This document shows positions 7,043 to 31,822 of a stretch of 64,000 bases of DNA, piece by piece. The DNA comes from Paenibacillus sp. KS-LC4 (lineage in GTDB: Bacteria; Bacillota; Bacilli; Paenibacillales; Paenibacillaceae), in NCBI RefSeq assembly GCF_036894955.1, contig NZ_CP145905.1:2746501-2810500 (forward strand). Reading direction: 5' to 3'. Under the pieces are notes generated by a model. It had not been told where the DNA came from, did no database searches, and saw only the letters and a program-made list of their open reading frames with translations. Position numbers and translations under genes: made by a program. Numbering within the stretch: the first letter of the stretch is position 1; every line of letters starts with the position of its first letter.

Positions 7043-8308
7043 GTGAAAAAATATACGCTTAGCAACGGTTTAAGAGTCGTAGTCGAATATATTCCCACCT
7101 GCCGCTCGGTTTCATTTGGCATTTGGGTCAAAACAGGCTCCCGGAATGAGACGCCTGAAAATAACGGGATCTCGCATTTTATCGAACATATGCTTTTCAA
7201 AGGGACTGATCAGCGCAGTGCCAAAGACATAGCCGACCTGTTCGATGGAATTGGGGGCAATGTCAATGCGTTTACCTCCAAAGAGTATACCTGCTATTAT
7301 GCCAAGGTGCTCGATGAGCATTTGCCGCTGGCTGTAGATGCGCTTTCGGATATGTTTTTCAATTCCAAGCTGGATGAGGCGGATTTGGCAAAAGAGCGCA
7401 ATGTTATTTTGGAAGAAATTTCGATGTATGAGGACACGCCAGATGACAAGGTGCATGATGAAGCATCGCGTGCCGCATATGGCGATCACCCCCTCGCTTA
7501 TTCGATTTTGGGCCTAGAGGAGCGTCTTGCTGAAATGACGCCTGATACACTGCGCGCTTATATGAACGATTATTATACGATTGACAACACCGTTGTCAGT
7601 GTCGCAGGTAATGTGGAAGAAGGCAAGCTGCTGGAGCTGCTGGAGCAGCATTTTGGCAAGTTTGATCGAAAAGGTATGCCTCAGCTAGTGAAGGCGCCTG
7701 AATTCCGTGGAGACTATATTTTCTATAAGAAGAAAACTGAGCAAAACCATCTTTGCCTGTCCTTTCAGGGCTGTTCGATTTCGGATGAGAAGCTGTATGC
7801 GATGGTGCTGCTCAACAATGCGCTGGGCGGCGGCATGAGCTCGCGTCTGTTCCAAGAAATCCGTGAAAAGCGCGGTCTCGCCTATTCGGTTTATTCTTAT
7901 CACTCCTCTTATGCGGACAGCGGCTTGTTCACCCTATATGCAGGTACAGCGCCGAAGCAAACGAAGGAAGTGCTCGATTTGACGATGGAGCAGCTTGAGG
8001 AGCTTGCTTCCAGGGGGCTTGAGGATGCGGAGCTTCATCGGGGCAAAGAGCAGCTTAAGGGCAGTCTGATTCTTAGTCTGGAGAGCACAAGCAGCCGAAT
8101 GACCCGTCTTGGGAAAAATGAGCTGATGCTGGGCCGGCATTACACGCTTGATGAGCTGCTTCAGCGTATTGATTCCGTGACGATGGACGATGTGAGAAGC
8201 GTAACGGAGCGAATGCTTGCGGCACCGTTTGCGGTGGCAATGGTAGGTTCAAGCGACAGGGCAGCATCTAAACTTGGGAGGGATCGTTTTGTATCGCGTA
8301 CTGTTTAA
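7043..8308 (+). CDS. mlpA: M16 family zinc metallopeptidase MlpA (YmxG)
   Basis: A 421-residue pitrilysin/processing-peptidase-like zinc protease. The inverted zinc motif HFIEH is at residues 45-49, with the downstream acidic ligand region [21 protein letters not shown] at 7043 is the start, as GGAGGA lies 6 bases upstream; the reading frame extends 22 codons further up but has no ribosome site there. It sits in the conserved ylxY-mlpA-(dut)-spoVF block and overlaps the 5' end of dut, so the two are co-translated. Confidence 0.93.
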
Positions 8309-15777: not shown

Positions 15778-17013
15778 TTAGCTGCCGACTGGCTGGCCGC
15801 CTTCTATTTTGGCTTTGCCGCCGCTGCCAATCCAAGTGCGCTTCCACTCCCTTTGAATGAAAGCCAGCAAGAGCATGCTGAGCAGGGCAATGCTGCTTAG
15901 AATGAGGAAGCCCGGTGTATAGGAGCCTGTCGTTTGATAAAGGCTGCCGAGAATAAGCGGCAGGAAGTATCCGCCAACACCGCCTGCTGCACCGACAATT
16001 CCAGTCATAATGCCGATTTCCTTGCCAAAGCGCTGCGGTACGAGCTGGAATACAGCGCCATTGCCAGCGCCGAGGCACATCATGCCAAGGAACAGCAAGG
16101 TGCAGACTACGTACAGAGAAGGCAGCAGGGAAACGGAAGCTAACATAACACCAGCCCCGATATACAACGTCATCAGGACGCGAATACCTCCAAGCTTATC
16201 AGAGAGCCAGCCGCCTACAGGACGGAAGAAGCTTCCGGCGATAACGCAAATGGTCGTAAAATCTGCCGCCTGAATTGCGGAAAGTCCATATTGCGTGTTG
16301 AAGAAAATGGTCAAATAGTTGGACATGCCGACGAAGCCGCCGAACGTAACGCTGTATAAAAGACAGAACAGCCATGCATCCTTTTGCTTCAGCACTTGCC
16401 CATATTCGGACAGCTTTTTCGGAGCGGGCTGATTGGGGCTTTCCTTGGCAAAGATCGTAAAGATGACAAATACGATTGCAATGGGAATAAGCGCTAGTCC
16501 AAAAACCGCTTCCCAGCCACCAAAATGCTGTGCCAGCCGATTAGCAAACAGCGTCGTCAGTACGGTACCGCTGTTACCTGCTCCAGCGATCCCCATGGCA
16601 AGCCCTTGATATTGCGGGGGATACCATCTGCTTGCAAGCGGCAGTGCTGCTGCGAAGGAGGCTCCAGCCACCCCGAGCAATAGAGCAACGAAATGCAGCT
16701 CTGTTAAGGAATCAACAAATTTCCAGCCCCAAATGAGCGGAATCATTGTAACGAGCATACCGATTTGACCCGTTTTCTTCGGTCCAATATGGTCTGTCAT
16801 AAAACCTAGCACAAGTCTAAGGATTGATCCGCCTAAAATAGGTAGGGCGACCAGTTTGGCCTTCTGAGCAGCATCCATCGGAAAATCGCTGGCGATAACC
16901 ACGATGAGCGGTCCCATTAAAATCCAAATCATAAAGCTGATATCGAAATATAAGAAAGAACTGAACAAGGATGGTTTGTGTCCACTTTTCCAAAACGCTT
17001 TTTTATCTACCAT
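15778..17013 (-). CDS. narK: NNP-family nitrate/nitrite transporter (NarK/NasA)
   Basis: A 12-TM major facilitator of 411 residues that imports nitrate or exchanges nitrate and nitrite at the plasma membrane. The two family glycine signatures are visible, [15 protein letters not shown] and [20 protein letters not shown] at 17013 is chosen because GAGGAG is 8 bases upstream; the frame stays open further but into the leader RNA. It is divergent from moeA-nasB-nasC and is clearly the uptake part of nitrate assimilation. Its transcript starts at a consensus promoter and runs through an ANTAR-type attenuator (separate entries). Confidence 0.94.
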
Positions 17014-17120: not shown

Positions 17121-17171
17121 AAAGAAAAGGCCGCAGTCTGCCCCAAGCTAAAGCTCGGACGGATTGCGGCC
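17121..17171 (-). terminator. Attenuator terminator in the narK leader
   Basis: On the minus strand GGCCGCA (17171-17165) pairs with TGCGGCC (17135-17129), with inner pairing around an AGCT-rich loop, then TTTTCTTT (17128-17121). It lies about 110 bases before the narK start codon, inside the transcribed leader. Its 5' arm contains the 3' arm of hairpin P2 (17167-17170), so the two structures exclude each other. Confidence 0.9.
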
Positions 17172-17204
17172 TCATTGCCGAACGCCAGCACGACTCTGTG
17201 CAGA
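17167..17204 (-). promoter_or_regulatory. ANTAR-type dual-hexaloop antitermination element of narK
   Basis: Read on the minus strand: P1 is GCAC-AGAGTC-GTGC (17201-17188), extended by a 1x1 mismatch and three more pairs; P2 is CGGC-AATGAG-GCCG (17180-17167). Both loops are six bases with A1 and G4 and a C-G closing pair, as known for RNA targets of ANTAR regulators such as NasR and EutV. P2 overlaps the terminator 5' arm, so protein binding should block termination. Confidence 0.85.
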
Positions 17205-17239
17205 CGATAATTGCTCACCTCATTGTGAACTCAAGCTGA

Positions 17240-17268
17240 ATTATAGAATAACCTCCTCTTAGTGTCAA
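17240..17268 (-). promoter_or_regulatory. Consensus sigma-A promoter of narK
   Basis: On the minus strand TTGACA (17268-17263), a 17-base spacer and TATAAT (17245-17240): a perfect match to consensus. Transcription should start near 17233, about 30 bases before hairpin P1. Confidence 0.92.
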
Positions 17269-17279
17269 TAAATATTACA
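17263..17279 (-). promoter_or_regulatory. GlnR/TnrA-type box overlapping the narK -35
   Basis: TGTAATATTTATTGACA on the minus strand fits the TGTNA-N7-TNACA consensus of GlnR/TnrA. Its last six bases are the -35 element, and its centre is near -38. Repression by GlnR under nitrogen excess is the natural reading, but activation cannot be excluded. Confidence 0.75.
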
Positions 17280-17312: not shown

Positions 17313-17329
17313 TGTTACGTATGTTGACA
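17313..17329 (+). promoter_or_regulatory. GlnR/TnrA-type box overlapping the moeA -35
   Basis: TGTTACGTATGTTGACA fits TGTNA-N7-TNACA. As on the narK side, the box ends exactly at the last base of the -35 element, giving the same geometry in mirror image. Confidence 0.7.
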
Positions 17330-17352
17330 TGTGTAGCAATTTCATTTATGCT
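17324..17352 (+). promoter_or_regulatory. Candidate sigma-A promoter of moeA-nasB-nasC
   Basis: TTGACA (17324-17329), a 17-base spacer and TATGCT (17347-17352). The -10 is weaker than on the narK side. Transcription would start near 17359, some 12 bases before hairpin P1. Confidence 0.7.
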
Positions 17353-17370
17353 CATAATAATCCATATAAA

Positions 17371-17413
17371 GGCCGCACAATGGTGTGCCGCCGCCCACTG
17401 GCAATGAAGCCCG
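17371..17413 (+). promoter_or_regulatory. ANTAR-type dual-hexaloop antitermination element of moeA-nasB-nasC
   Basis: P1 is GCAC-AATGGT-GTGC (17375-17388), extended across a C-C mismatch by GGC/GCC. P2 is GGC-AATGAA-GCC (17400-17411). Both loops are hexamers with A1 and G4 and a C-G closing pair. The 3' arm of P2 is part of the 5' arm of the following terminator. The P1 stem is the same GCAC/GTGC with a 1x1 mismatch as in the narK leader. Confidence 0.85.
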
Positions 17414-17442
17414 CTCCCTGCTGACAGGGAACGGGCTTTTAT
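17407..17442 (+). terminator. Attenuator terminator in the moeA leader
   Basis: AAGCCCG and TCCCTG (17407-17420) pair with CAGGGA and CGGGCTT (17425-17438) around a CTGA loop, with one internal mismatch, followed by TTTTAT. It is within the leader, about 35 bases before the moeA start, so it must be bypassed for expression. Confidence 0.9.
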
Positions 17443-17475
17443 GCTTATTTTCAGCAATATGAAGGAGGAGTCCCC

Positions 17476-18780
17476 ATGGCGATTGCCCGTGTAGATCGTG
17501 TAGATATAAAAAGAGGTTTAAACGTAGACGAGGCTGTTCATTGTCTAATTGAACGTGCGCTGCCGGGCAAGGTAGAGCAAGTGCTTTTACAGAAAGCCGC
17601 TCAGCGAGTGCTTGCCGAGGATTTTTACTCCCCATTTCCTATGCCTCCCTTTCGCCGGGCGGCAATGGATGGTTATGCACTCCATTCAGCTTATACCGAG
17701 ACGGCCTCACCTGCTCATCCGATACGCCTTATCGTAACTGGCGAGGTGCAGGCGGGGGCGGTAGCTTGGTTTGCAGGCTCTGGCGGTCATCCCCTCATTA
17801 ATGAACAACTGACAGCCGTGCGTATTTTTACAGGAGCTCCTGTGCCTGACTGCTTTGATGCAGTCATTAGACAGGAGGAAATTCAGCTCCCTAGCTTGCA
17901 AGGTCGGCAAACGGACGCAGTGAGCTGGGGAATGCCGCAAATTCAAATCAATCAGCCTATACAGCCGGGAAAAAATATTGCCGAGGCAGGTGAAGATATC
18001 GCTGAGAACAGCCTCGTCATTAATAAAGGCACCAGACTTGGTTCGAAGGAAATTGCCATTCTTGCCTCTTATGGGCAGGAGCGGGCTTCTGTAGTCGCAA
18101 AACCAAAGGTCGCCATCCTTCCTGTTGGAGATGAGCTGCTGCTTCCGGGCCAGCTCTTGCAGCCAAATCGAATTTACGATGCCAATGGCTTCGTTGTGGA
18201 AGCATTTTTACAAGAGCTGGGTGCCTCGGTAATTCGTTCCTTGCCAATTAAGGATGAAGCGGAGGTCATTGCTTCGGCGATTAAGCAAGCTGCGGAGCAT
18301 GCGGATTTGGTTATTACGACGGGAGGTATTTCGGTAGGCGATTATGATTGTGTGGCCCGCGCGGCTGATTGCCTCGGCTTTGAGCCATTGTTCACTAAAG
18401 TGAGGATGCGCCCTGGGCCGCATTCGTCGGCTTTTATACATCGAGGAAAGCTGTTGATCAGCTTGTCTGGCAATCCAGCAGCGTGCTACACAGGGCTTGT
18501 ACTGCTAGTGAAGCCAATCGTACAGCATTGGATAGGTCTCAATGGAAGCAAGGCGGAGTGGAAGCAAGCTGTGCTCATGGACGATGTGGATAAGACTTCG
18601 CCCTATCCCCGTTATATCCGCGCTTTTGTATGGATGGAGGCGGGAGAATGGCGAGTTAAGCCGCTGCCGAACGATAAATCGGGCAATATTGCTGCTTTTG
18701 CGGGTGCGAATGCACTGGCGGCAATTCCGAGTGAAGGTCTTCGGGCAGGAAGTCATGCCGCGTTTCTTAGTTTGACTTAA
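17476..18780 (+). CDS. moeA: Molybdopterin molybdenumtransferase MoeA
   Basis: Inserts molybdenum into adenylated molybdopterin to form the cofactor needed by NasC. The 434-residue protein has the MoeA N-terminal domains (PFRRAAMDGYALH) and the MoCF-binding core with TTGGISVGDYDCVA and the GNPAACYTG loop, then a C-terminal beta domain. GAAGGAGGAG precedes the ATG. It is the first gene of the nitrate reductase operon, so cofactor supply is co-regulated with the apoenzyme. Confidence 0.95.
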   Translation: MAIARVDRVDIKRGLNVDEAVHCLIERALPGKVEQVLLQKAAQRVLAEDFYSPFPMPPFRRAAMDGYALHSAYTETASPAHPIRLIVTGEVQAGAVAWFAGSGGHPLINEQLTAVRIFTGAPVPDCFDAVIRQEEIQLPSLQGRQTDAVSWGMPQIQINQPIQPGKNIAEAGEDIAENSLVINKGTRLGSKEIAILASYGQERASVVAKPKVAILPVGDELLLPGQLLQPNRIYDANGFVVEAFLQELGASVIRSLPIKDEAEVIASAIKQAAEHADLVITTGGISVGDYDCVARAADCLGFEPLFTKVRMRPGPHSSAFIHRGKLLISLSGNPAACYTGLVLLVKPIVQHWIGLNGSKAEWKQAVLMDDVDKTSPYPRYIRAFVWMEAGEWRVKPLPNDKSGNIAAFAGANALAAIPSEGLRAGSHAAFLSLT

Positions 18781-18829: not shown

Positions 18830-20977
18830 TTGATGAAGCAAAAGCTTGTCGTTATCGGCAACGGGATGGCTGGCGTAAAATGCGTAGAGGAAATATACGA
18901 GCTGGCTCCTGAAGCATACGACATTACCATTATAGGCGCAGAGCCGCATCCTAATTATAATCGTGTTCTTCTCTCCAAAGTGCTGCAAGGGAACACCGCA
19001 CTCGCTGATATTACGTTGAATGATTGGAATTGGTACAGTGAGCGGGGCATTATTCTGTTAACTGGCGAGAGGGTTGAGCGTATTCATGTGGAGGAGAAAA
19101 GGGTGCTGACAGCATCAGGGAAAAAGATAGCCTATGATCGCCTGATTATTGCAACCGGCTCATCGGCATTCATGCCCGTGCTCCCAGGCATTCAAAAGCC
19201 TGGCGTAACGGCGTTCCGCAATATGGAGGATTGCCAGGCGATGATGGAGGCTTCCCAGCGCTTTAAGCGCGCTGCCGTTATAGGTGGCGGACTGCTCGGG
19301 CTTGAGGCGGCGAGAGGGCTGCTGAATCTCGGGATGGAGGTTGATGTCGTTCACAACGCCGGTTATTTAATGAATCGCCAGCTTGATCGGATGTCAGCAG
19401 ACCTGCTTAAAAATGAGCTGATGAAGCAGGGCATGCGTTTTTGGCTTAATAAGCGGACGGAAAAAATAACAGGCGTCCGCAGGGCGAATGGCCTGCTGTT
19501 CTCGGATGGAACAACGCTTGCTGCGGATCTCATCGTCGTAGCGATCGGGATTAGCCCGAATTTAGCCGTTACAGCGGATAGCGGCATTCGGACGAACCGT
19601 GCAATCATCGTTAACGATTATATGGAAACGAATATAGCGAATATATACGCAGTCGGGGAGTGCGCTGAGCACCAAGAAACCGTATATGGACTAGTTGCTC
19701 CGCTTTATGAACAGGCTAAGGTGCTTGCGCGACATTTGTGCGAGGTAGAAACGGAGGGCTATCACGGCTCCATTCCGTATGCACAATTAAAGGTTTCAGG
19801 TGTGGAGGTGTTTTCCGCGGGCGTTATCCGCGATGAAGAAGCCGAAACCGCGCTGCAGCATTATGATGCGATGAAGGGCACTTATAAAAAAGTTACGATG
19901 CAGGGCGGTATTGTAGCTGGAGCTGTATTATTCGGAGACAGCTCCGAAGGCAGCAAGCTGCTAGGGTATTTGAAACGCCGTGCTGGAATAGGCGTGCTCA
20001 AGGACAGCGATTCAGGCGCCAAAACAGGCGGAGCTGCTTCTGTTGCAGCTGCCATGCCGGACGGTGAGACGGTCTGTGCCTGTAACGGGGTAAGCAAAGC
20101 AGCTATTGTAGCGGCGATACAGAGTGAGGGGCTTGAATCGGCTGATCAAGTACGCGACAAGACGAAGGCTTCCGGCTCCTGCGGCGGATGCCGTCCAATG
20201 GTGGAGTCGCTCGTAGCCTATGCTTTATCGGGAGTTGGGGGAGCGGTTAAAGCGGCGCCCATTTGCGGCTGTACGGAGCTTGACCCGGCAGAGCTTAAAG
20301 AAGCTATGCTTGGGGATACGTTTAGCGATGCTGCTTCCGCAAGAATGATTCTCGCATGGAACAAGCCCGAGGGCTGTCTCATTTGCCGGACTGCTATGGG
20401 CTACTATTTGCGGCTGGCTGAAACAAATGATGCAGGCGATATTCAAGGTCAGGGACAGCTTCCTTACCCGTCGCTGCAGTCCGTGCTTCTATCTGCTTCT
20501 AAGCAAGAAGAAGCGCCCTCCAGTTGTCCGATTTCGCATGCCGACCGTCTCGAAGATGACGGGCCGGGTTATATTGCAGCAGAGCTGGTGAAGGCACTAG
20601 GTAATCTGGCATTTCCAACCATGCTGAAAGCTTCTATATCTGCGGGTGCCTTGTATCCTGCTGGTGTGCTGGTTCATGATGTCGGCATTGCGGCATCGCC
20701 AGCTGGGTGGGAGCTTTATATTGGCGGTCATATGGAAAGCCCGGTCAAGCAAGCTCAACTGCTTATGATAGAGGCAACGGAGCAGCGAGCGGCTGAAACG
20801 GCGATAGCCTGCATGCAGTGGTACCGTCAAACCGCCTATTATGGGGAAGCGGTATGGAAGTGGCTAGAGCGAGTAGGGCTTATTGCGGTAAGAGAGAAGC
20901 TGCTTGACCCTGATTTTCGCGAGGAGCTTCTCGGCAGCTGGCAAATGGAACGTAAACAAGAGAAGTGCGCCGTTTGA
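18830..20977 (+). CDS. nasB: Assimilatory nitrate reductase electron-transfer subunit NasB
   Basis: FAD/NAD(P)H-dependent subunit that feeds electrons to NasC. The 715 residues contain an N-terminal FAD-binding GNGMAG loop, an NAD-binding GGGLLGLEAA loop, and a BFD-type [2Fe-2S] site with cysteines near 416, 418, 451 and 454. A second BFD-like set (CGC and CLIC) follows at about 475-525. The last 150 residues resemble the sirohaem domain of NirB-type enzymes but lack its iron-sulfur cysteines. TTG at 18830 or ATG at 18833 could be the start; GGAGGT fits either. B. subtilis NasB has a similar plan. Confidence 0.9.
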   Translation: MMKQKLVVIGNGMAGVKCVEEIYELAPEAYDITIIGAEPHPNYNRVLLSKVLQGNTALADITLNDWNWYSERGIILLTGERVERIHVEEKRVLTASGKKIAYDRLIIATGSSAFMPVLPGIQKPGVTAFRNMEDCQAMMEASQRFKRAAVIGGGLLGLEAARGLLNLGMEVDVVHNAGYLMNRQLDRMSADLLKNELMKQGMRFWLNKRTEKITGVRRANGLLFSDGTTLAADLIVVAIGISPNLAVTADSGIRTNRAIIVNDYMETNIANIYAVGECAEHQETVYGLVAPLYEQAKVLARHLCEVETEGYHGSIPYAQLKVSGVEVFSAGVIRDEEAETALQHYDAMKGTYKKVTMQGGIVAGAVLFGDSSEGSKLLGYLKRRAGIGVLKDSDSGAKTGGAASVAAAMPDGETVCACNGVSKAAIVAAIQSEGLESADQVRDKTKASGSCGGCRPMVESLVAYALSGVGGAVKAAPICGCTELDPAELKEAMLGDTFSDAASARMILAWNKPEGCLICRTAMGYYLRLAETNDAGDIQGQGQLPYPSLQSVLLSASKQEEAPSSCPISHADRLEDDGPGYIAAELVKALGNLAFPTMLKASISAGALYPAGVLVHDVGIAASPAGWELYIGGHMESPVKQAQLLMIEATEQRAAETAIACMQWYRQTAYYGEAVWKWLERVGLIAVREKLLDPDFREELLGSWQMERKQEKCAV

Positions 20978-20993: not shown

Positions 20994-23135
20994 ATGATGG
21001 AGCTAAAAGTAGATGAGCCGAAAGCCCAAATCACGGCAGTTATGGATACACAGTGTCCTTTTTGCAGTGTGCAATGCAAAATGCGCGTCGAAGAGGAGCG
21101 CTCGGCGGCCTGGCGTTTGGCCTATAAGGTGACAGCGATTCCGAATGCCGCATCGGAAGGACGGTTATGTGTGAAAGGGATGAATGCGCATCAGCATGCG
21201 CTGCATCGCGAGCGCCTTGTTCATCCGCTTATTAGAAGGGAAGGGGAGCTTGTGCAGGCGACATGGGAGGAGGCGCTCGAACTGGTTTCCAGTCGTTTCC
21301 GGTCCTTGCAGGCCGAGCATGGTGTGGATTCCGTCGCTTTATATGGCGGTGGCTCGTTGACGAATGAAACGTCTTATTTACTTGGCAAATTCGCTCGTGT
21401 TGGTTTGCGTACACGCTACATTGATTATAACGGACGCTTCTGTATGTCGGCGGCCGCTTCCGCAGGAAGCAAGACGTTTGGTGTGGATCGCGGATTAACG
21501 AATCAGCTGAAGGAAATCGAACGGTCGGAATGTCTGATTCTTGCCGGAACGAATATAGCGGAGTGCCAGCCGACGCTAATGCCTTATTTTTCAAAGGCAA
21601 AGGAAAACGGGGCGACCATTATTGTGATTGATCCTCGAATGACGGGAACGGCCGAGCTTGCGGACATTCATTTGCAGGTGAAGCCAGGCATGGACGCTGC
21701 GCTTGTGAATGGTATGCTAAAAGTTATTTTTGACGAGGGACTCATTGATCGGGGGTTTATTCGCAGCCGTACGAAGGGCTTCGCAGAGCTGGAGCAGCAT
21801 GTAAAATCGCAGAATTTGGCTGAAATTGCAGCAAGCACGGGTGTGTCTGAGTCGCTCATACGCCTCGCTGGGCTCGCATTTGGTGAAGCGAGGACGGGGA
21901 TGGTTTTTACTGCGCGTGGGGTTGAGCAGCATGCCGATGGTCATTTGGCGGTGCGGAATTTTCTTAATATGGTGCTGGCAACGGGGAAAATCGGTCGTGA
22001 GGGCTGCGGCTACGGGGCGGTCACCGGTCAAGCCAATGGACAGGGTGGACGAGAGCATGGACAAAAGGCAGATCAGCTTCCAGGCTATCGACTGATTGAA
22101 AATGAGCATGATCGGGCTTATGTGGCGAGCGTCTGGGGCATTCGCCCGGAGGAGCTCCCCGGCAAAGGGGTGTCGGCTTATGAAATGATGGAAATGGTGC
22201 ACCGTGAGGAGATTAAAGCTTTACTTGTCATGGGCTCGAATCCAGTCGTCTCGAATCCGAATGCAACACTTGTGGAGGAAGGCATCGCCAAGCTTGATTT
22301 TACCGTCGTAGCAGATATGTTTTTATCCGAAACGGCGCTGCTCGCTGATGTGGTGCTGCCAATATCCGCTTATTTGGAAAATACGGGAACGATGACTAAT
22401 TTGGAAGGACGCGTTTTACTTAGAGAAGCGGGTCGTCTTGCGCCTGGAGAGGCCCGTCATGACTGGGAAGTGCTATGCGAGCTGGCCAAGAGGCTTGGGC
22501 GCGGCGAATATTTTGCCTTTGAAAATTCGGAGCAAATTTTTAATGAGCTGCGTTTGGCAAGCAAGGGCGGACTTGCCGATTATTACGGCATTACGTATGA
22601 TCGGCTGCGCAAGGAGGAGGGCATTTATTGGCCATGCCCATCGCTTGATCATCCAGGCACGAAACGGCTGTTCGAGAAGTCGTTTGCCCATGAGGATGGT
22701 TTGGCAGTTTTTCAAACGGTTGCGAGCGATTCCCCGGCTGAAAAGACTGACCGTAAGTTTCCGCTGCTTATGACCAATGGACGGCAGCTTTCTCATTACT
22801 TGACGGGCGTGCAGACGCACCGCAGTCCTGCGCTGGAAGCGAGAAATGTGGAAAATCATGTGGAGATTCATCCTCATACTGCAAAGAAATACCGCATTGA
22901 GGATGCCTCGCTGGTAGCTGTGCAATCGAAGCGGGGAGTGGTCATTTTACGCTGCAAGGTGGCAGAAAGCATTCGTGAAGACACCGTATTTATTCCCATG
23001 CATTGGGGCGGCGTACAAAATGTAAACCGGGCTACCAGTCCACAACTGGACCCTTTTTGCAAAATGCCTGACTTTAAGACAAGCGCGGTAAGCATCCGGC
23101 CATACCTTGAATATTTACAAGAGCAGCAAGCATAA
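20994..23135 (+). CDS. nasC: Assimilatory nitrate reductase catalytic subunit NasC
   Basis: Molybdopterin-guanine-dinucleotide oxidoreductase that reduces nitrate to nitrite in the cytoplasm. The 713 residues begin with a [4Fe-4S] site (C21, C24, C28, C59 in QCPFCSVQCKM and GRLCVKG). They continue with the molybdopterin oxidoreductase domains (EHGQKADQLPGYR, VMGSNPVVSNPN, LENTGTMTNLEGR) and a C-terminal dinucleotide-binding domain (MTNGRQLSHYLTG, MHWGG). No Tat signal, as expected for an assimilatory enzyme. It starts 16 bases after nasB. No nitrite reductase gene is in the window. Confidence 0.95.
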   Translation: MMELKVDEPKAQITAVMDTQCPFCSVQCKMRVEEERSAAWRLAYKVTAIPNAASEGRLCVKGMNAHQHALHRERLVHPLIRREGELVQATWEEALELVSSRFRSLQAEHGVDSVALYGGGSLTNETSYLLGKFARVGLRTRYIDYNGRFCMSAAASAGSKTFGVDRGLTNQLKEIERSECLILAGTNIAECQPTLMPYFSKAKENGATIIVIDPRMTGTAELADIHLQVKPGMDAALVNGMLKVIFDEGLIDRGFIRSRTKGFAELEQHVKSQNLAEIAASTGVSESLIRLAGLAFGEARTGMVFTARGVEQHADGHLAVRNFLNMVLATGKIGREGCGYGAVTGQANGQGGREHGQKADQLPGYRLIENEHDRAYVASVWGIRPEELPGKGVSAYEMMEMVHREEIKALLVMGSNPVVSNPNATLVEEGIAKLDFTVVADMFLSETALLADVVLPISAYLENTGTMTNLEGRVLLREAGRLAPGEARHDWEVLCELAKRLGRGEYFAFENSEQIFNELRLASKGGLADYYGITYDRLRKEEGIYWPCPSLDHPGTKRLFEKSFAHEDGLAVFQTVASDSPAEKTDRKFPLLMTNGRQLSHYLTGVQTHRSPALEARNVENHVEIHPHTAKKYRIEDASLVAVQSKRGVVILRCKVAESIREDTVFIPMHWGGVQNVNRATSPQLDPFCKMPDFKTSAVSIRPYLEYLQEQQA

Positions 23136-31570: not shown

Positions 31571-31822
31571 ATGTCAACCGTTCTTACAAACTTCGATACG
31601 TGGAAGCAATTTTTGGCTGACAAGGTCCAGCATGCGAAGGAAATCGGGATGGACGATGAGTCCATAGCCAGCCTTGCCTTCGAAATCGGATCTTTTCTTG
31701 ATGAAAAGGTCGATCCGAAAAATGAGGAGCAGCGCGTATTAAAGGAGCTGTGGGATGCAGGCGACGATTCCGAGCGCAAGGTTCTAGCTCGTCTCATGCT
31801 TAAGCTTGTACAAAAGGCGTAA
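31571..31822 (+). CDS. ymfJ: DUF3243 protein YmfJ
   Basis: An 83-residue cytoplasmic protein of unknown function that matches the DUF3243 family in length and in its FDTWKQFLADKV and SFLDEKVDPKN stretches. ATG at 31571 follows AAGGAGG. It lies at the YmfJ position of the conserved operon and ends in a strong hairpin. Confidence 0.88.
   Translation: MSTVLTNFDTWKQFLADKVQHAKEIGMDDESIASLAFEIGSFLDEKVDPKNEEQRVLKELWDAGDDSERKVLARLMLKLVQKA

Follow-up and report, generated by a model that had tools for sequence, protein, structure and literature searches.

The window analysed here, a 64,000-nucleotide stretch of the genome of the soil bacterium Paenibacillus sp. KS-LC4 to which all coordinates refer unless stated otherwise, contains two divergent sets of genes for nitrate use. 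On the plus strand lie moeA, encoding molybdopterin molybdotransferase (17476..18780; Pfam MoeA_N, MoCF_biosynth and MoeA_C over cut-off), a nasB-like gene for a NirB-related electron-transfer subunit (18830..20977; Pfam and TIGR02374 over cut-off) and nasC, encoding the catalytic subunit of assimilatory nitrate reductase (20994..23135; NF047855 above its cut-off). The minus strand carries narK, the gene of a nitrate/nitrite transporter (15778..17013), which matches Pfam MFS_1 and has the NarK family TIGR00886 as its best NCBIfam model, with 305.7 bits, slightly below the cut-off of 311.7. The narK promoter agrees with the consensus at 12 of 12 positions (TTGACA-N17-TATAAT, 17240..17268, minus strand). 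On the moeA side we predict a sigma-A promoter with 10 of 12 consensus matches (TTGACA-N17-TATGCT, 17324..17352, plus strand), which is the sole promoter-like site found on the plus strand between 17000 and 17500; it recurs in the related loci L003-L008, while the -10 elements of the other 11 moeA/nasB-side leaders failed the filter of our script. Both -35 elements are overlapped by a GlnR/TnrA-type box with an exact TGTNAN7TNACA motif, TGTTACGTATGTTGACA at 17313..17329 for moeA and TGTCAATAAATATTACA at 17263..17279 for narK.

Within the moeA leader, direct reading of the sequence and the MFE fold bear out the two hairpins and the overlapping terminator that the original prediction had placed there. 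Hairpin P1 (GGC-C-GCAC AATGGT GTGC-C-GCC, 17371..17392, plus strand) is supported by sequence, fold and a covariance model match, and comprises an outer GGC (17371-17373), a C.C mismatch (17374/17389), GCAC (17375-17378), the loop AATGGT (17379-17384), GTGC (17385-17388) and an outer GCC (17390-17392), giving a stem of 4 bp plus 3 outer bp. Hairpin P2 (GGC AATGAA GCC, 17400..17411, plus strand), with the same three kinds of support, has a 3-bp stem of GGC (17400-17402) and GCC (17409-17411) around the loop AATGAA (17403-17408). In each hexaloop the first base is A and the fourth is G, and the linker is 11 nt from GTGC to GGC, or 7 nt when counted from the outer stem of P1. An intrinsic terminator follows (17406..17439, plus strand), a GC-rich hairpin and then TTTT, whose 5' arm takes in the 3' half of P2, namely its final three loop bases and its 3' arm; it was found in the MFE fold, and a simple terminator scan did not list it. 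The MFE of the leader is -39.7 kcal/mol with the terminator and -31.2 kcal/mol with P2 enforced, a penalty of 8.5 kcal/mol, from which we take P2 and the terminator to be mutually exclusive and the terminator to be the predicted default. Because the moeA promoter ends at 17352, transcription is predicted to start near 17359, which would put about 12 nt of RNA ahead of P1; the original prediction depended on a start no later than 17388, and the start predicted from the promoter sequence lies before P1.

The narK leader, on the minus strand, has a P1 with a GCAC AGAGTC GTGC core, a U.U mismatch and an outer stem (17183..17206; scan, fold and model), a P2 of CGGC AATGAG GCCG (17167..17180; scan and covariance model) and a terminator that overlaps this P2 (17127..17173; scan and fold). 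The two P1 hairpins thus share the GCAC/GTGC stem and the 1x1 mismatch, as originally noted. We considered the mismatch as a defining trait and rejected it: it is absent from relatives and lineage-specific, the P1 stem on the moeA side of L005-L008 being an unbroken CAGCAC/GTGCTG, and it is therefore not a conserved feature. Some variation is also found in P2, whose loop on the moeA/nasB side of L017, L018 and L020 is GACGAT, with A1 changed to G and G4 kept. The narK leader has, in addition, a third hexaloop hairpin at its 5' end, P0 (GTTCAC AATGAG GTGAGC, 17213..17230, minus strand; sequence scan and fold). An ANNGNN P0 is present in 10 of the 23 narK leaders listed (L002-L008, L016, L022 and L023), a count for which the promoter may have been misplaced in L019 and L024; in L009, L014 and L020 there is a hairpin at this place whose fourth loop base is other than G. 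We conjecture that P0 is a further recruitment site for a dimer of an ANTAR-domain protein. Two relatives (L030 and L031) have two tandem dual-hexaloop motifs upstream of narK, the second of them weaker (E 0.014 and 0.019).

A scan of both strands of the window for two ANNGNN loops with a linker of at most 12 nt and an overlapping terminator returned two matches, which are the two leaders; 100 dinucleotide shuffles gave a mean of 0.07 and a maximum of 1. This agrees with the earlier argument that the same motif is unlikely to occur by chance twice on opposite strands. Without the terminator requirement, the window contains seven matches, and the shuffle figure applies to the terminator-requiring scan. 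The identity of the two fixed loop letters was examined over 106 related loci, which are interrelated and were fetched by similarity of the NarK or ANTAR protein rather than of the RNA, with our own genome, L003, L004 and L033 excluded: 95 loci were positive for the rule A..G.., as against 1 to 9 for any one of the 15 remaining letter pairs.

The original prediction had also proposed a covariance search with a dual-hexaloop model in this genome and in relatives. We built such a model, R1, from an alignment, A1, of 47 leaders chosen by hand from the 113 listed for relatives, excluding our genome and its near-identical relatives L003, L004 and L033; as all seeds had passed the motif filter, the loci that supplied them match by construction. 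Searched against the 6.25-Mb genome, where 150 of 3666 first-look candidates were scored, R1 gave three matches at E<=0.01, situated before nirB (45.8 bits), moeA (37.9 bits, spanning 17373-17412) and narK (28.6 bits). The next two (E 0.076 and 0.105) lie inside coding sequences, by eye those of two permeases, one MFS-type and one ArsB/NhaD-like, and we discarded them as chance matches; ten weaker ones have E-values from 0.26 to 9.3. The nine pairs of A1 are standard in 92.4% of cells, compared with at most 47.8% in slid controls, and 57 cells are changed on both sides, compared with 24.5 in shuffles. Two other measures do not go beyond the shuffles: pairs with a two-sided change number 4 (3.6 in shuffles), and further pair types number 14 (12.3 in shuffles). 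All of the covariation support in A1 comes from P1, P2 being without any two-sided change, and since the filter behind A1 asked for CAC/TAC, GGC and a P1 stem of 4 bp or more, the conservation of the inner pairs is partly due to the way the sequences were selected.

The third leader lies outside the window (at 8037 on the minus strand of L032; C1:1513996-1514035 in genome coordinates), before an operon that comprises nirB, a formate/nitrite-transporter-like gene and cobA; 'nirC' would be a label only for the second of these, which is below the NirC and FNT cut-offs. Divergent to this operon is the gene of a 206-residue protein that is the single ANTAR match in the genome (PF03861, E 3.5e-19). 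ANTAR is its only Pfam match, so it is not a NIT-ANTAR fusion of the NasR kind. A profile of 32 orthologues (alignment A2, drawn from 80 named regulator loci) finds EutV as its best match, over most of the length (E 1.4e-15), followed by NasR, Rv1626 and AmiR. The nearest named relative by regulator, among the best 80 of 159 relatives retained, is Paenibacillus algorifonticola (L033), whose orthologue is 92% identical to the protein of our genome, and its AlphaFold2 model (mean pLDDT 86.7) again has EutV (PDB 6wsh, 6ww6) as the best Foldseek match (E 1.1e-7). Eleven EutV residues are named as RNA contacts in the relevant part of a 2022 study (PMC8934654). By our reading of the profile alignment, 10 of the 11 do not vary across the 32 orthologues, among them the Tyr stacked on G4; only the position of Lys147 departs from EutV (Met in 30, Ile in 1 and Gln in 1).

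Among 60 genomes, 39 contain both the RNA (R1 at E<=0.01) and an ANTAR domain that passes the Pfam cut-off (42 of 60), three the domain only (G037, G041 and G052) and none the RNA only; the remaining 18 lack both, G002 among them with a sub-cut-off ANTAR match. Fisher's test on these counts gives p 1.4e-12, calculated without correction for kinship. This search used stricter filters, with 111 candidates scored per genome, and some of the positive genomes supplied seeds; the 18 empty ones are free of that construction effect. The narK leader of G037 (L022) has weaker R1 matches (E 0.018 and 0.074) and is the exception among the 23 closest narK loci (L002-L024), the other 22 of which have a narK-side match at E<=0.01. 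Nine of the 23 gave no narK-side seed, and eight of these nine match. The original prediction would have been in difficulty if the motif were missing upstream of orthologous moeA/nas operons; a leader is present on the moeA/nasB side in all 18 examined loci in which moeA or nasB is divergent to narK, 11 of these leaders having served as R1 seeds and 7 not. In L016, L022, L023 and L024 it is the ANTAR gene itself that is divergent to narK, and no leader was found on the ANTAR-gene side, while L019 has an ANTAR gene close by, on the same strand as narK, and a second leader at a greater distance. Among the more distant narK loci, to which L030 and L031 with their tandem motifs belong, L025 gave only weak matches (E 0.12 and 0.63) and L026-L029 none at E<=1. 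At the regulator, a terminator-requiring scan of the 450 bp upstream of the ANTAR gene finds a leader in 76 of the 80 named loci; three more (L059, L102 and L103) have one in a looser scan only, and L108 in neither.

ANTAR-responsive antiterminators with two hexaloop hairpins have been characterised in Enterococcus eut, Klebsiella nasF and Pseudomonas amiE, and elements of this kind were already reported before nitrate/nitrite transporter and nitrite reductase genes of diverse bacteria (Ramesh et al. 2012, PMC3369931). At the sequence level, the moeA leader carries every feature of this class, as the consulted text describes it, that we tested: two A1/G4 hexaloop hairpins with stems of no fewer than 3 bp, a short linker, a terminator that overlaps P2, a position upstream of nitrogen genes and an ANTAR gene in the same genome. 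Given these features, and the known occurrence of such elements before nitrate/nitrite genes, it appears to be a known kind of switch. What differs from eut, nasF and amiE is that one ANTAR gene is accompanied by three leaders, that the narK leader has a third hexaloop hairpin, and that the lineage is another. No paper in the open-licence collection searched mentions both the ANTAR domain and Paenibacillus, although a listing in the supplementary tables of Ramesh et al. is possible; open-licence papers that combine antitermination, nitrite reductase and Paenibacillus are, by title, on other subjects, and none of the titles or abstract openings among the literature matches listed concerns ANTAR control in Paenibacillus.

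We therefore hypothesize, with a probability of about 0.92, that the leader at 17371-17439 as a whole is best explained as an antiterminator responsive to an ANTAR protein. The reading first put forward is strengthened by the presence of an ANTAR protein in the genome, by the retention of 10 of the 11 EutV RNA-contact residues in its family and by the confinement of the RNA to genomes with an ANTAR domain. Several points run against it: the P2 loops of L017, L018 and L020 break the A1 rule, P2 shows no two-sided change, three genomes with an ANTAR domain gave no RNA match at E<=0.01, and, when folded in isolation, the P1 loop closes an A-U pair, which leaves a tetraloop. A second layer of control may lie at the promoters. 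GlnR-type boxes overlap both of them, and exact boxes are more frequent than expected in the window (3 against 0.54, a number reached in 2 of 100 shuffles). The third of these boxes lies at 31572-31588. On the moeA/nasB side of the 18 divergent loci the box is exact in 11 and has one mismatch in 7, and it is exact in all 81 of the 340-bp stretches upstream of the ANTAR gene (our genome and 80 loci); the corresponding figures for control 340-bp windows are 27 of 3861 and, for AT-rich controls, 16 of 401. In P. polymyxa WLY78, nasA and nasDC are reported targets of direct repression by GlnR through sites of this type, the sites being listed for nasA and nasD and expression being lowered under N-limited and N-excess conditions alike, while narK1K2 and nirABD are given without a GlnR site in the part of that report used here (PMC9948412). 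From sequence, GlnR may act at the moeA and narK promoters, and the direction in which it would respond to nitrogen supply is likewise putative. The leader could instead be a plain attenuator, in which the terminator is real, the two small hairpins merely reflect the GC-richness of the sequence, and GlnR at the promoter is the sole control. The boxes at both promoters and the report on P. polymyxa speak for this; against it stand the prominence of the A1/G4 letters among the loop pairs (95 of 106 loci) and the restriction of the motif to ANTAR genomes, and we consider a plain attenuator improbable.

Slightly less probable than this attenuator is a motif that is bound by the ANTAR protein but has its main effect on RNA stability or translation rather than on termination, as has been proposed, for translation, of some ANTAR targets that lack a terminator (PMC3369931). 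Here a strong terminator overlaps P2, as it does in the relatives that passed terminator-requiring scans, and the ribosome-binding sequence at 17463-17468 lies outside the hairpins, both of which speak against such a mode of action. Least probable, to the point of being negligible, is another class of leader such as an amino-acid attenuator. In 18 kb surrounding the site, Rfam gave two matches at E<=5, both far under their gathering scores, and the sole one over the leader is Thr_leader, whose 21.8 bits are far below the gathering score of 55 and whose E-value of 3.2 is at chance level.

For the preferred reading, an ANTAR-dependent antiterminator, we propose the following course of events. 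GlnR would gate the moeA promoter according to nitrogen supply, and RNA polymerase would then produce P1 at the extreme 5' end of the transcript and P2 next. With the regulator inactive, the terminator would capture the 3' half of P2 and transcription would end before moeA. Judging from the genes involved, nitrate or nitrite would render the single ANTAR protein, encoded beside nirB, active as a dimer, which, by analogy with characterised ANTAR systems, would grip both ANNGNN loops, hold P2 and block the terminator, so that moeA-nasB-nasC is made; for EutV, the dimer has been proposed to meet the hexaloops sequentially (PMC8934654). The narK and nirB leaders would be further targets of this protein, and this type of switch probably controls all three related nitrate-use operons, with one protein on three leaders implying joint induction of uptake, molybdenum cofactor, nitrate reductase, nitrite reductase and siroheme synthesis.

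Nitrate assimilation is also under the control of an ANTAR protein in NasS-NasT of Paracoccus (PMC3795266), whose NasT likewise has a receiver-like N-terminus according to the text drawn on here, and in NasR of Klebsiella (PDB 4akk). The Paenibacillus regulator resembles EutV in sequence, fold and RNA-contact residues; however, the position of the phospho-acceptor Asp is occupied by another residue in 29 of the 32 orthologues (H in 19, N in 5, A in 3 and Q in 2, with D in 3), and by N in our genome according to our alignment, so that phosphorylation there is unlikely in most members. The receiver-like domain contains an invariant WWC (88-90) and a second invariant Cys (C90 and C102 in the numbering of the first sequence of A2), a possible sensing site. 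Unlike NasR, the regulator has no NIT match, and a search of our own genome for NIT domains returned none; the control genomes were silent as well, and the search is thus by itself no proof of absence. Unlike the situation in NasS-NasT, the gene beside the regulator, directly after it (L032 8828-9895), is TrpD2/YbiB-like, and the PF13379 proteins over cut-off appear unlike the cytoplasmic NasS: there are three, with a fourth match below cut-off, and we set the three aside as NasS candidates on account of N-termini that by eye are lipoprotein-like.

A TrpD2/YbiB-like gene follows the ANTAR gene within 145 bp in all 80 named loci, with a median gap of 19 bp. At E<=1e-60 such a gene is found in 37 of the 60 genomes, 36 of them with an ANTAR domain (the other being G047), and by coordinates it adjoins the ANTAR gene in 35 of the 37. 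The match is absent from six ANTAR genomes (G019, G029, G041, G043, G051 and G055), which speaks against an obligatory partnership; in Paenibacillus the pairing is strong, but it is not universal. E. coli YbiB is described as binding nucleic acids (PMC10123104), and we conjecture that the TrpD2/YbiB-like protein is a sensor or a brake. It is possible, though in our view doubtful, that the regulator represents a novel type of ANTAR unit for sensing nitrate, in which a mostly unphosphorylatable receiver-like domain with WWC and a second Cys is governed by a TrpD2/YbiB-like protein in place of NasS or AmiC; if true, this would be a third design for the control of ANTAR antitermination by nitrate. 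The degenerate receiver and the TrpD2-like neighbour, in a genome whose searches gave no NIT or NasS candidate, raise the question of how nitrate is sensed.

For Paenibacillus and its kin, these observations outline a compact and testable nitrate-assimilation regulon, in which two proposed inputs, GlnR at initiation and an ANTAR protein at termination, would converge on three operons.
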